From the NCBI RefSeq assembly GCF_020667895.1, contig NZ_JAFMPS010000002.1, positions 15,131-79,130 of the forward strand: DNA of 64,000 nt, in the 5' to 3' direction. A program made the translations under genes and the position numbers. The notes under the pieces were generated by a model. That model ran no database searches. It was given only the letters and a program-made list of their open reading frames with translations, and had not been told where the DNA came from. This document shows positions 6,860 through 64,000 of this stretch, one piece after another (the stretch's first letter is position 1; every line of letters begins with the position of its first letter). Source of the DNA: Alcanivorax sp. 1008. GTDB lineage: Bacteria > Pseudomonadota > Gammaproteobacteria > Pseudomonadales > Alcanivoracaceae.

Positions 6860-8131
6860 TTACTGAGGAAAGACATCATCTACTGTGCTTAACGGGTAGT
6901 GGGCTGGATAACCTTTACCGGCCACACCTGAGTCAACCGCCGCTCTCGCAACAGCTGCAGATACAATACCAAGCAGACGCGGATCGGTAGGCTTGGGAAT
7001 AATGTACTCCGGGCCAAACGACAAGCCTTCACCACCATATGCATCCAGCACCACCTGCGGAACCGGTTCGTGAACCAGCGCAGCAATGGCATGCACTGCA
7101 GCAATTTTCATCTCTTCATTGATAGCCCGGGCTCGTACATCCAGCGCGCCGCGGAAGATATAGGGGAAGCCCAGTACATTGTTAACCTGATTAGGATAGT
7201 CGGAGCGACCGGTAGCAATAATCGCATCCGGGCGAACGGCGCGGGCCAACTCGGGGCGAATTTCCGGGTCCGGATTAGCCAGCGCAAAAATGATCGGCTT
7301 CGGCGCCATTTTCAGCACCATATCCTGCGTCAGCATATCGGCGCCAGACACACCAATAAACACATCCGCGCCATCAATTGCATCATCCAGGGTGCGCTTG
7401 TCAGTGTCATTGGCAAACGCGGCCTTGAACTGGGTAAGATCGTTGCGGCGAGAATGAATTACACCCTTGCGATCCAGTACCAGAATATTTTCCTTACGCG
7501 CGCCCATCTCTATGAGCAGCTTGATCGACGCCACGCCGGCGGCACCAGCCCCGACACAAACCACGCGAATATCTTCAATCTTTTTCTGCTGAATGCGCAA
7601 AGCATTGACGAGGCCTGCTGCAACCACAATTGCAGTGCCGTGCTGATCGTCATGGAATACCGGGATGCTGCACCGCTCTTTCAGAGTACGCTCGATTTCG
7701 AAACACTCCGGCGCCTTGATATCTTCAAGGTTAATGCCGCCAAAGGTTTTGTGAATGCGCACCACCGTATCAATAAAGGCCTGCGTAGACTCGGCCTCCA
7801 TTTCAATATCGAATACGTCGATTCCGGCAAACAGCTTGAACAGAATGCCTTTACCTTCCATCACCGGTTTGGAGGCCAGGGCACCAAGATCGCCCAAACC
7901 AAGAATAGCGGTGCCATCACTTATCACTGCCACCAGATTACCTTTCGAGGTGTAGCGATAAGCCAGCTCCGGCTCGCGAGCAATTTCCCGTACCGGCTCG
8001 GCAACACCTGGGCTATAGGCAAGAGACAGGTCACGCATGGTGGCGGCCGGCTTGGTCACTTCCACGCTGATTTTCCCCGGACGGGGTTTAGCGTGATATT
8101 CCAGTGCCGCCTGTTTCAATTCATCAGACAT
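6860..8131 (-). CDS. maeB: Malic enzyme, short form without phosphotransacetylase domain
   Basis: Oxidative decarboxylation of malate to pyruvate with NAD(P)+ reduction (423 aa). The N-terminal malic domain shows [11 protein letters not shown] and [18 protein letters not shown] Rossmann domain begins with [16 protein letters not shown] near residue 190, followed by the DRKG segment. Many proteobacterial MaeB proteins carry a C-terminal phosphotransacetylase-like half (about 750 aa in total); this one stops after the malic-enzyme part. Cofactor preference cannot be read from sequence alone. It shares the strong terminator with ponA and lies downstream of rpmE on the same strand, separated by a terminator. 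Confidence 0.93.
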
Positions 8132-60739: not shown

Positions 60740-61981
60740 ATGACCAGCGCAACCCATCCCTCCCTGAATGTGCTTAACCGTGTTGGCGATCCGAATCGCC
60801 CCGGTCTGCGCTGGGGAAGACGTATCTTCCGCTGGATATATGGCTCAGACCCTCACCCAACCGCCGGGCAGATGAACGAAATCCGCCGCAGCATGCTGAG
60901 CGGCGACCCGCGCGCCGACGCTGTAGTTGCCATGTACAAAAGACTTCCCGCCGGACAAGGCCGCAAGCTGCTGGATCAGGCGCTGGAAAGCGGTCTGCAT
61001 ACACTGACTGACCCGCCCGCCGAGCTGGTCGCCCTGTTCGAGCAAGTGGACCACGAACCTATCTGGCTGGATCGCGACAAGCTCAACCTTGCCTGCGATG
61101 TTTCGCGCCGGGTTGGCCTGTCCGGCGAGCTGGTACTGCGCAACCTGTCATTGATGGGCGGCTATCTGGGGGCCGCTGCAGCCAAACCCCTGGTATTCAC
61201 CGGCCAGCTTGACCGCAGAACTCCGGGTCGACTGGTGGAAACCAGCAAATTCTGGCTGGACGTCACTACTCGTGGCGGACTTGAGCGCGACGCCGAAGGC
61301 TTTAAAAGCGCCGTGCGGGTGCGCGTCATGCACGCTCAGGTGCGAGCCATGCTGCTTGAATCTGAAAAGTGGGACATGGCCTGGGGCTACCCGTTGAATC
61401 AATGGGACTCCATGGCCACCATTCTCGAGTTCTCGGTGATCCTGCTCAGCGGACTACGCTCAATCGGCTTTATCTTCAGCAAACGCGAGCGTGAGGCGGT
61501 GGTCCATCAATGGCGCTATATCGGCTATCTGATGGGTGTCGAGGAACGCATTCTGCCCACCTGTGAGGACGACGCCATGCGCGCCCTCTATCAAATTGTC
61601 GCCACCATCTGCGACAGCGATGAAGACAGCAAGCTGCTCGGCCAGTCACTTGCCAATGCCACCCTGCAGTTCGCCGATGACCGCTGGATCAGTCAACAGC
61701 TGGCCAAAGTAGAAAGCACCCTGCGTACTGGCTACACCCGTTACGTTCTTGGCGATGAGGCGGGCGATACTCTGGGCTTGCCGCGCACCGCAGCAAAATA
61801 CTTCTGGCCAGCACAGATTCCGCTGCGGGTCAGTGCCGAGCTGGTTCGCATGGCACTGCCGCCGGTGAACAAGGCTTTGGTAAAACGAGGCGAGAGAGCG
61901 GTACGCAATCAGTTCCCGAAGCAAGTTAGCCGGACCAAGGCAGACACCAGCTTTACCCCGGTTTCGGGGTTGGCGCGCTAA
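60740..61981 (+). CDS. MpaB-type oxygenase (DUF2236)
   Basis: A 413-residue protein of the MpaB/DUF2236 family, mostly helical. The conserved block is GFKSAVRVRVMHAQVRAMLL (about 190-209), containing the Arg and His believed to serve heme in MpaB and latex-clearing proteins. A further conserved region is MGVEERILPTCEDDAMRALYQ. No signal peptide is present. An AGGAG site precedes the ATG. It probably oxidises a hydrophobic substrate; this is family-level inference. Confidence 0.8.
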   Translation: MTSATHPSLNVLNRVGDPNRPGLRWGRRIFRWIYGSDPHPTAGQMNEIRRSMLSGDPRADAVVAMYKRLPAGQGRKLLDQALESGLHTLTDPPAELVALFEQVDHEPIWLDRDKLNLACDVSRRVGLSGELVLRNLSLMGGYLGAAAAKPLVFTGQLDRRTPGRLVETSKFWLDVTTRGGLERDAEGFKSAVRVRVMHAQVRAMLLESEKWDMAWGYPLNQWDSMATILEFSVILLSGLRSIGFIFSKREREAVVHQWRYIGYLMGVEERILPTCEDDAMRALYQIVATICDSDEDSKLLGQSLANATLQFADDRWISQQLAKVESTLRTGYTRYVLGDEAGDTLGLPRTAAKYFWPAQIPLRVSAELVRMALPPVNKALVKRGERAVRNQFPKQVSRTKADTSFTPVSGLAR

Positions 61982-62002: not shown

Positions 62003-62035
62003 AACAAAAAGCCCCGCTTGGCGGGGCTTTTTGTT
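62003..62035. terminator. Bidirectional terminator between the oxygenase gene and tRNA-Phe
   Basis: Fifteen-base perfect arms (62003-62017 and 62021-62035), core GCCCCGC/GCGGGGC with a TTG loop and A/T tracts on both sides. It serves the MpaB gene from the left and tRNA-Phe from the right. Confidence 0.93.
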
Positions 62036-62045
62036 GTTACTAATT

Positions 62046-62121
62046 TGGTGCCCGGAGGCGGAATCGAACCACCGACACGAGGATTTTCAATCCTCTGCTC
62101 TACCAACTGAGCTATCCGGGC
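62046..62121 (-). tRNA. tRNA-Phe (GAA)
   Basis: A 76-nt tRNA with encoded CCA. The acceptor stem GCCCGGA pairs with TCCGGGC. The D-loop is AGCTCAGTTGGTAGAGC, the anticodon loop TTGAAAA gives anticodon GAA for phenylalanine, and the T-arm contains GGTTCGATTCC. It has its own promoter on the minus strand and ends in the shared terminator. Confidence 0.98.
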
Positions 62122-62177: not shown

Positions 62178-62450
62178 CTATTTTTCCGGTGGGACGTAGC
62201 CTTCGGCCTGGTCGAATGGCTGATTGGCCAAAAAACGCTCACGCTGGCCATCCAGATAAACCTTGGTGGCCGGGTCCATGACGCTGAGCCGCTTTTCGTT
62301 GATCAGCATGGTCTGCTGGGACAGCCACTCCTGCCAGGCCTGCTTCGACACGTTATCGAAGATCTCCTGCCCTTTGGGGCCGGGGAACGGCGGGCGCTCC
62401 AGTCCTTCAAGCTGCTGCTGGAGTTTGCGGCAGAAAACCATTCTGGTCAT
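62178..62450 (-). CDS. yggX: Fe(2+)-trafficking protein YggX
   Basis: A 90-residue protein that protects iron-sulfur enzymes and traffics iron. The N-terminus [10 protein letters not shown] carries the conserved Cys; [24 protein letters not shown] is diagnostic. Starting at ATG 62450 matches relatives; the ATG eight codons upstream is less likely. In many gammaproteobacteria it follows mutY directly; here it is separated by an amidase, transporter, envelope and oxygenase genes plus tRNA-Phe. Confidence 0.93.
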
Positions 62451-62551
62451 CGGGGTGAGCCTCGTGCTTTGCATTGGGCGGGAAGTGTCGCACTGGTTGT
62501 GCCGACACGCAAAGCAGTCATCAGATGATTAATAGCGGCAGTGAACTCGAC

Positions 62552-62664
62552 GGTTGTTCAGGTGGTTAGCCCTGCCCGGGACACGCGGCAAGTACATCCC
62601 TGTAGCTCCTCTCAGCCATCCCTGGCTTCGAGGGTCCCGGACAGGGCTAACCACCTGAACAACC
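62552..62664. repeat. Nested palindromic element 1 upstream of htpG
   Basis: Outer arms of 31 nt (62552-62582 and 62634-62664) pair with one mismatch around a 51-nt core. The core holds two small hairpins, TAC-ATCCCT-GTA (62593-62604) and AGCC-ATCCCT-GGCT (62614-62627). Both loops are ATCCCT (AGGGAT on the other strand). Together with element 2 it fills the only gene-free stretch longer than 300 nt (62451-62918). It has no coding content that I can see. Confidence 0.85.
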
Positions 62665-62709
62665 TGCATCCTGCTTCTTTAAAAGTTGGCAAGAATGCCA
62701 ATGCGAGGT

Positions 62710-62817
62710 TCTTTGGGGTGTCAGGGGTTGCCGGGACTGTGTGAGGCAGGGATGCCGAACTCAAGCCCCCATGGATGGGTTCACGGCGTGTCCCGGCAAC
62801 CCCTGACACCCCAAAGA
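62710..62817. repeat. Nested palindromic element 2 upstream of htpG
   Basis: Perfect 28-nt outer arms (62710-62737 and 62790-62817) enclose a 52-nt core. Inside are GGC-AGGGAT-GCC (62745-62756) and CCC-ATGGAT-GGG (62768-62779). The core layout matches element 1 in reverse orientation, but apart from the innermost CCGGGAC/GTCCCGG the outer stems have a different sequence. Confidence 0.88.
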
Positions 62818-62852
62818 GCCGGACAATCCCACTGCCTACCCCACCAACAAAG

Positions 62853-62880
62853 CTTGAAAAACAAAACCCAGCCCCCATCT
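62853..62880 (+). promoter_or_regulatory. Sigma-32 heat-shock promoter of htpG
   Basis: CTTGAAA (62853-62859) and CCCCATCT (62873-62880), spaced by 13 nt, match the RpoH consensus fully, with the same spacer length as the hslVU promoter. The predicted start is near 62887, about 32 nt before the htpG ATG. Confidence 0.9.
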
Positions 62881-62918
62881 GCCCTTGGTCAACCGAACAA
62901 CCACGAGGACTCACCCCC

Positions 62919-64000
62919 ATGTCTGCGACTGCCCAGACCGAAAAGCGCGAATTCCAGACCGAGGTCAAACAGCTACTCCATCTGATGGTGCATTCGCTGT
63001 ACTCGAACAAGGAAATCTTCCTGCGCGAACTGATCTCCAACGCCTCTGATGCCGCCGACAAACTCAAATTTCTCGCCCTGCAGGACGACAGCCTGTATCA
63101 GGGTGACAGCGACCTAAGCATCCACATCGAAACAGACAAGGAAGCCGGCACCCTGACCATCCGCGACAACGGCATCGGCATGAACCGGGAAGAAGTCGTC
63201 GCCAACCTCGGCACCATCGCCAAATCCGGTACCGCTGACTTCCTCAAGAACCTGTCCGGCGACCAGAAAAAAGACTCCCGCCTGATCGGCCAGTTTGGCG
63301 TCGGCTTTTACAGCGCCTTTATCGTCGCCGAAAAAGTGGAAGTATTTACCCACAAGGCGGGCACCGAGGCAAAAGACGGTGTTTACTGGAGCAGCGAAGG
63401 CAGTGGCGAGTTCGATCTTGGCAGCGCCGAGATGACTGAGCGCGGCACCCGCATCGTGCTGCACCTGCGCGCGGATGAAAAAGAGTTTCTCGAACCCTGG
63501 CGTCTGAAAAGTCTGGTACGCAAATACAGCGACCATATCGCCGTTCCGGTATTAGTCCGCGATGAGAAGCCTGCTGAAGAAGAAGGTAAAGAACCGGAAA
63601 TCAGCTGGGACCAGGCTAATACCGCCACTGCCCTGTGGACTCGCAACAAGAGCGACATCAAGGACGACGAGTATCAGGAATTCTATCGCCATGTTTCCCA
63701 CGATTTCGCCCCAGCATTGGCGTGGAGTCATAACCGTGTGGAAGGCAAACTGGATTACACCTCGCTGATCTATGTGCCAGAAAAAGCCCCCTTCGATATG
63801 TACCAGCGGGATAAACCCCACGGCCTGAAACTGTATGTGCAACGCGTCTTTATCATGGACGACGCAGAACAGTTTCTGCCGCTCTACCTGCGCTTTATCA
63901 AAGGCATCGTGGATAGCAACGACCTGTCCCTGAACGTGTCCCGGGAAATCTTGCAGCAGGACAAAACAGTCAACTCGCTAAAAAGCGCACTAAGCAAACG
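62919..64000 (+). CDS. htpG: Molecular chaperone HtpG (Hsp90), N-terminal part, cut by window edge
   Basis: The first 360 residues of bacterial Hsp90, a homodimeric ATP-dependent chaperone. The GHKL ATPase domain shows [35 protein letters not shown] (Asn for Mg), DNGIGMN and the lid region [14 protein letters not shown]. The middle domain follows with [16 protein letters not shown] and [27 protein letters not shown]. The gene continues beyond base 64000. It has its own sigma-32 promoter. Confidence 0.97.

Follow-up and report, generated by a model that had tools for sequence, protein, structure and literature searches.

The DNA upstream of htpG in Alcanivorax sp. 1008 raises the question of what two adjacent palindromes are, which of their strands is constrained and by what they might be read. 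The window (the whole stretch of DNA analysed, 64,000 nucleotides) was examined for inverted repeats and for folds against shuffled sequence. Two side-by-side palindromes of opposite orientation had been described there from the letters alone, and both analyses bore this out: copy 1 has 36-nt arms at 62552-62587 and 62629-62664 (92% complementary), copy 2 has 31-nt arms at 62707-62737 and 62790-62820 (97% complementary, 52 nt between them), and none of 200 shuffles equalled the minus-strand fold of copy 1 (z -11.27) or the plus-strand fold of copy 2 (z -9.05). Both copies are one structured element with a 31-bp outer stem, a three-way junction and two ANGGAY-loop hairpins. They form an outward pair (minus, then plus), and a search of the window with covariance model R2 (described below) returned these two copies only, at 89.7 and 66.3 bits. 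The features are given one per line, with the evidence in brackets.

62178-62474, minus strand: neighbouring gene for an oxidative damage protection protein (NF003817), presumably of the YggX type
62552-62664, GGA-bearing strand minus: copy 1, core 62583-62633 (inverted repeat, fold, R2)
62552-62582: copy 1 outer arm, pairs with 62634-62664 (inverted repeat)
62593-62604, minus strand: copy 1 hairpin 2, TAC-AGGGAT-GTA (sequence)
62614-62627, minus strand: copy 1 hairpin 1, AGCC-AGGGAT-GGCT (sequence, R2)
62634-62664: copy 1 outer arm, partner (inverted repeat)
62665-62706: spacer between the outward copies (sequence)
62707-62820, GGA-bearing strand plus: copy 2, core 62738-62789, at the RF01731 gathering score (inverted repeat, fold, R2)
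62707-62737: copy 2 outer arm, pairs with 62790-62820 (inverted repeat)
62745-62756, plus strand: copy 2 hairpin 1, GGC-AGGGAT-GCC (sequence, R2)
62768-62779, plus strand: copy 2 hairpin 2, CCC-ATGGAT-GGG (sequence, R2)
62790-62820: copy 2 outer arm, partner (inverted repeat)
62853-62880, plus strand: apparent sigma-32-like (heat-shock) promoter of htpG, outside the element and downstream of copy 2, CTTGAAA-13 nt-CCCCATCT (read by eye)
62919-63998, plus strand: htpG (NF003555), neighbour, runs off the window

The loops of the small hairpins had been read as AGGGAT or ATGGAT on stems that differ and stay paired; this description stands for the window, and the loop is refined here to ANGGAY with a variable N. 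CAGGGATG/CATGGATG sites lie on the minus strand at 62595-62602 and 62617-62624 (copy 1) and on the plus strand at 62747-62754 and 62770-62777 (copy 2). The octamer CANGGATG is not enriched in the window (12 found, 13.9 expected), and the notable point is the four stem-closed octamers rather than octamer frequency. No sigma-70-like promoter was found by consensus scan in 62400-62960. On the far side of the YggX-type gene a tRNA gene (minus strand, 62049-62121) lies beside it, and a perfect 15-nt inverted repeat at 62003-62035 stands just past the open frame 60740-61981.

Seven copies from the Alcanivorax sp. 1008 genome aligned without indels in the 31-bp outer stem, the two inner hairpins standing at the three-way junction, with both-sided changes among them at 25 of the 31 outer pairs, and covariance model R1 was built from these seven. 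The covariance search that the sequence-only reading had called for found further copies, and these carry compensatory changes. A core search pattern was also used, in which GGA, C-G closure and bulge of hairpin 2 were fixed and hairpin 1 was left free; it gave 130 matches, 126 with room for hairpin 1, of which 119 had a hairpin of at least 4 bp and 7 did not. The hairpin 1 loop of these pattern-found copies carried GGA in 119/119 called hairpins, on varied stem sequences, and loops of 5 nt or with a G-C closing pair also occurred. From the 118 pattern loci, 80 were taken into one set, and 88 were taken together with 8 whole-genome loci into another.

Alignment A5 holds 104 of 222 parsed copies, selected as having a core of length 50-54 and GGA twice, by their stem score and so as to limit redundancy; row L232 was retained despite its loop 2, ATCGAC. 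Because the search pattern fixed much of hairpin 2, a fair view of this hairpin comes from the 28 rows outside the pattern (76/104 fit it), which were found with R1. Among these 28, GGA was present in 27 and C-G closure in all, and the other two pairs of hairpin 2 were Watson-Crick in 28/28 and 26/28, with three types each. A 5-nt bulge on the 3' side of hairpin 2 reads TTYAC in copy 2 and in 20 of the 28 rows, and is absent as TTYAC in copy 1. Over the 104 copies 87.9% of cells pair. The covariation score was 0.721 (0.195 for shuffled alignments, at most 0.18 for slid controls) and the corresponding count of cells was 953 (305 shuffled), and neither value was reached in 500 shuffles; the count of pairs with both-sided change, 27/30, is weak alone, with a shuffle mean of 25.1 and 15 of 500 shuffles reaching 27. 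RNAalifold predicted 25 pairs on A5, 24 of them with compensatory change. Model R2 was built from A5; alignment A4 includes four mirror-strand matches and was used in no model. Such conservation suggests that a protein recognises a hairpin loop, in agreement with an earlier suggestion of a hairpin-recognising protein.

The genome of Alcanivorax sp. 1008 holds at least 13 covariance-model matches (best 20 candidates per genome scored); R1 gave 24 there, a number that includes weaker opposite-strand mirror matches of the same palindromes. Matches to R1 were found in 8 of 18 relatives, with best E-values from 2.6e-34 to 5.8e-5, the weakest positive relative (G014) having a single match at E 5.8e-5. 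The element was present in 50 of 229 genomes of the class, and in a draw from the phylum 34 of 398 genomes matched, all of the same class or nearer; the surveys of 19, 229 and 398 genomes each include Alcanivorax sp. 1008 itself, and copy numbers are lower bounds from the best 20 (class) or 11 (phylum) candidates scored per genome. The core pattern occurred in 118 stretches of named genomes, and among the 80 of these that were listed the carriers include Xanthomonas, Stenotrophomonas, Marinobacter, Microbulbifer, Rheinheimera, Shewanella, Alteromonas, Methylomicrobium and Ectothiorhodospira. Three large genomes of the same order (G297, G301 and G382) gave at least 5-9 weak matches (best 11 candidates scored; best E 1e-6 to 6e-6) and may hold a divergent version of the element. 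No blastn match of copy 2 was found in plasmids. Two stretches of viral contigs (L278 and L279) carry the core pattern; L278 (an IMG/VR contig) has two matches at 7470-7863, a partial one on the minus and a full one on the plus strand, flanked by DNA methylase-like and pseudouridine-synthase-like frames (named by eye), and is probably a prophage edge, since tail-protein-like frames are followed by the pseudouridine-synthase-like frame beside the element. Six tandem copies stand at L194 (G004:C1:94406-95646), the first five spaced by about 227 bp, and their units contain GCGGCTGAAGCCGCTCCTAC, which we take to be a Pseudomonas-type REP. Most pairs in G012 (L178-L193) combine two distinct subfamilies with different conserved stems, and in 5 of the 16 stretches a match runs into a contig end, as if breaking the assembly.

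Gene context was taken from a home-made codon-score gene caller, and related loci are not independent. With this caller 5 of 169 clusters overlapped a gene and 164 were intergenic; two-copy clusters were outward (minus, plus) in 43 of 47 cases, inward in 2 and tandem in 2. The median distance was 48.5 nt to stop codons and 111 nt to starts. Single copies between co-directional genes were sense in 28 and antisense in 25 cases (132/169 clusters usable), which argues against a cis role, because a cis-acting mRNA element should be sense. A cis-acting htpG leader was rejected on the position of the sigma-32-like promoter downstream of copy 2 and on this absence of a general sense bias. Consensus scans of 189 non-redundant copies revealed neither a promoter nor a terminator at a fixed place along the edges: AT content upstream rose slightly (0.43 to 0.51), upstream TATAAT-like matches numbered 134, against 129 in the same place on the wrong strand and 103 downstream, and TTTT within 14 nt downstream was present in just 2/189 copies, with no T-run signal of an intrinsic terminator. 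A self-contained sRNA gene was rejected on these edges, which have no clear promoter or terminator.

For the strand under constraint, isolated mismatches were counted in 106 outer stems found without the covariance model (of the 122 matches with room, 16 lacking a good outer stem were excluded) and read on the GGA strand. G.T exceeded A.C (110 vs 15, binomial p 5e-19), A.G exceeded C.T (32 vs 5, p 7e-6), G.G exceeded C.C (22 vs 2, p 4e-5) and A.A stood at 11 vs 3 for T.T, the p values ignoring relatedness among copies. A strand-neutral palindrome would give equal numbers for each couple, and the asymmetry therefore marks the GGA strand as the one whose fold is constrained, be it RNA or single-stranded DNA. 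With a G.T excess no larger than that of A.G or G.G, the counts do not distinguish between the two molecules.

Orthologous sites were compared with a congener, G001. Three loci are collinear (L011/L198, the locus in this window, L013/L200 and L017/L199). The segment bearing the element is inverted at L010/L201 (a pair) and at L032/L203 (a single, truncated copy next to another repeat), and two loci are rearranged (L021/L204 and L022/L212); L012 has one copy and its ortholog L202 two. In the five collinear orthologous copies of the three loci the core differs at 6/260 sites, the outer arms at 17/310 and the flanks at 77/447 (5' 42/219, 3' 35/228). Ten core differences were counted in eight ortholog pairs, five at loop N and three where the family allows Y; the low core divergence could partly reflect conversion between copies. 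Nine G001 sites were tested for orthologs and seven gave one (L206 gave none, L213 a weak match only); at these seven the element is missing or reduced in Alcanivorax sp. 1008. Six occupied/empty alignments showed no clean ends or target duplications by eye, and the edges were untidy. Damaged copies are L022 (1501-1573, without the core), L032 (1501-1589, without part of the core) and L271, where in comparison with L208 the right arm alone remains, truncated at the border of the core. Single elements in this genus are adjoined by another palindromic repeat (GCCGCCATAATCC ... GGATTATGGTGGCG); it lies up to about 160 bp upstream of the element at L199, L203, L205, L207, L208 and L017, occurs also at L212, L032 and L273, and differs in orientation between the congeners at L032/L203 and L207/L270.

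Stem changes between the congeners were both-sided in 17 cases (9 of them transversions) and one-sided within the stem in 7; an earlier tally of 13 one-sided changes included positions outside the stem. At L012/L202 one base is inserted in both arms at matching places. Both-sided changes together with this matching two-arm insertion fit template switching, which according to passages of the respective papers can create and maintain hairpin stems, including RNA hairpins (PMC8794818), and acts to homogenise arms and invert spacers (PMC8604942). From the way the arms changed we infer that the outer arms stay paired largely through this process. G374 and G410, a second genus pair with 84-86% identity in the surroundings of the sites, have three ortholog pairs whose arms likewise differ yet pair, by eye. 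The sequence-only reading had taken outer stems that differ and stay paired as a sign of selection on structure; the pairing stands, but it is not clean evidence of selection, because arm-to-arm template switching would give the same pattern. Better signs of selection are the core, with its loops, short hairpin 2 stem and low divergence, and the mismatches, which are asymmetric between strands.

Among known families the nearest is TwoAYGGAY (RF01731, clan CL00106), in which an outer stem likewise encloses two hairpins with AYGGAY/ANGGAY loops. Copy 2 scored 43.7 bits against its gathering score of 43 with lax filters and is missed with default Rfam filters, and copy 1 gave no match; in the alignment of the element to the model two AYGGAY-like loops lie within an outer stem. 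A genome search with RF01731 gave matches over the cut-off in 2 of 19 genomes (G015 and G017) and none in Alcanivorax sp. 1008. The second loop base of the element takes all four letters, not just the Y implied by the name. In the part of PMC2864571 that tabulates it, TwoAYGGAY is a probable RNA, not cis-regulatory, from human gut, gamma-Proteobacteria and Clostridiales, and binding of CsrA was proposed for it in 2014 in a passage of PMC4333381. Passages on CsrA in PMC7652899 give the site RUACARGGAUGU, with GGA mostly in six-base loops and an ANGGAN hexaloop, and SELEX ligands with mostly four or fewer contiguous pairs. GGA loop, ANGGAN hexaloop and short stem were all found in the element. 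Against this consensus, hairpin 2 fits closely (in copy 1 TACAGGGATGT equals positions 2-12, preceded by C where the consensus has R) and hairpin 1 more loosely, its stems of 7 pairs exceeding those of most SELEX ligands (PMC7652899).

CsrA/RsmA is the likeliest reader, because hairpin 2 fits the published site, copy 2 stands at the TwoAYGGAY score and binding has been proposed in print, and RNA appears to be the likelier molecule. We give about an even chance to the reading that the element is a TwoAYGGAY-type, REP-like repeat whose RNA binds a CsrA/RsmA dimer, its copies acting jointly as distributed CsrA-binding RNA. A passing polymerase would transcribe the GGA strand of the intergenic palindromic repeat, and the RNA would fold into a long stem with a three-way junction at its tip, where the two ANGGAY-loop hairpins would be displayed and would occupy the two faces of one dimer. 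The copies of a genome would then titrate CsrA as a decoy or exert local control as CsrA anchors in untranslated regions, and the outer arms would stay paired largely since template switching at replication copies one arm from the other.

The gene csrA is present in Alcanivorax sp. 1008. Its co-occurrence with the element was dropped as support, being not significant (46/50 element-bearing vs 148/179 other genomes, p 0.12; in good assemblies 38/39 vs 138/159, p 0.08), and G214, a genome listed as 98% complete, has at least 9 element matches (best 20 candidates scored) and no csrA match. The sponge RNAs CsrB, CsrC and RsmX/Y/Z likewise have GGA-loop hairpins that fit the CsrA site consensus. 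These are single genes with their own expression signals, whereas the element is scattered in many copies whose edges show no fixed promoter or terminator. No match to RF00166 (PrrB_RsmZ) passed the cut-off in Alcanivorax sp. 1008 or 18 relatives. RsmU of Xanthomonas campestris is, in the passages of PMC7694677 that describe it, an RNA of a 3' untranslated region with GGA motifs that binds RsmA by EMSA and co-IP; its GGA-to-AAU mutant still bound RsmA, which calls for caution in the analogy. RsmU is probably not a known member: in four other Xanthomonas genomes no R2 match was found beside the ComEA-type gene (picked by family and length), the sole match being about 1.3 kb away (L307).

Of the rival explanations, a mobile single-stranded DNA element survives best, as a rather unlikely reading that keeps its share of probability because of the strand neutrality, the missing expression signals and the non-significant csrA association. 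The GGA strand would fold at replication, and a structure-specific, trans-acting recombinase or transposase would read the ANGGAY hairpins and spread or invert copies. Such mobility would suit a multicopy, patchy repeat (8/18 relatives, 50/229 of the class) that is intergenic (5/169 clusters overlapping a gene) and strand-neutral to genes, with inverted segments at two congener loci, two more loci rearranged, presence/absence differences at orthologous sites and near-identical stems among many G012 copies. The enzyme is a difficulty. A RAYT-type TnpA had been named as something to look for, and Alcanivorax sp. 1008 has 0 matches to Y1_Tnp (PF01797) beside at least 13 element matches; 12 of 50 bearing genomes have none, and the domain is found in 38/50 element-bearing and 118/179 other genomes (p 0.23). 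The idea of a mobile REP-like element thus holds for repetitiveness and REP-like placement, and a RAYT is not needed at present, so that a RAYT/Y1 transposase as required partner was rejected for Alcanivorax sp. 1008. Clean target duplications and fixed ends were likewise missing from the six occupied/empty alignments, a structure needed for transposition alone would be expected to leave more divergence in the core than is seen (6/260, flanks 77/447), and the loop fits the published consensus of an RNA-binding protein.

Less probable still is a REP/BIME-like palindrome with general roles in DNA or at mRNA ends (protection of transcript ends, supercoiling, docking of gyrase or IHF), whose GGA loops would reflect common descent. 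RAYT-linked REPs of the GTAG and CGTC families are, in the passages of PMC3733652 and PMC12306157 on REP features, likewise intergenic, multicopy, palindromic and often paired, and the element resembles them in lying nearer to stops (48.5 nt) than to starts (111 nt) and in its pairs and clusters. It differs in its much longer stem (28-31 bp, compared with 5-13 bp for GTAG/CGTC REP stems in the same passages), in its two conserved inner hairpins and in having no Y1 transposase match in Alcanivorax sp. 1008, and descent alone explains neither that unrelated hairpin 1 stems all keep GGA, nor that differences concentrate at N/Y positions, nor the strand asymmetry of mismatches. A functionless mutational artefact, in which template switching would keep long inverted repeats perfect, is very unlikely: the mechanism described in PMC8794818 and PMC8604942 suits the excess of both-sided (17, 9 transversions) over one-sided (7) stem changes and the matching base gain in two arms at one locus, but it concerns the outer arms only, even these differ less (17/310) than the flanks, and it predicts neither the conserved core nor the paired 3-bp stems of hairpin 2 nor the asymmetry of mismatches.

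For the CsrA/RsmA reading, the RNA family and the idea of CsrA binding are already in print. New here is that the element occurs as an intergenic repeat in many copies, whose pairs mostly point outward and which show neither gene-strand bias nor a fixed promoter or terminator. The passages on the family in the TwoAYGGAY publications mention no dispersal as a repeat, outward pairing or inversion, and no report of TwoAYGGAY as a dispersed, outward-paired, locally inverting gamma-proteobacterial repeat was found in a literature search of incomplete coverage, most items being judged by title or abstract. A wider form of the CsrA/RsmA reading, in which tens of dispersed palindromic copies in either orientation, often in outward pairs of which transcription from one side or the other would expose a functional copy, would buffer CsrA/RsmA as a genome-wide sponge in many Gammaproteobacteria, with stems kept by template switching and not by selection, is offered tentatively, as possible but clearly less than probable. 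For annotation, an RF01731 model rebuilt from diverse copies would help, and a warning for similar repeats is that covariation of the outer stems makes selection on RNA look better supported than it is. If the preferred reading is true, a candidate RNA of 2010 would gain a function, the fields of REP elements and Csr regulation would be joined, and the upkeep of paired RNA stems by template switching could be studied in a natural setting. Should the loops bind CsrA, they would make up a large overlooked set of sites, laid down by a repeat, for a global regulator that is among the most closely studied in gamma-proteobacteria, in bacteria that include Xanthomonas and Stenotrophomonas.
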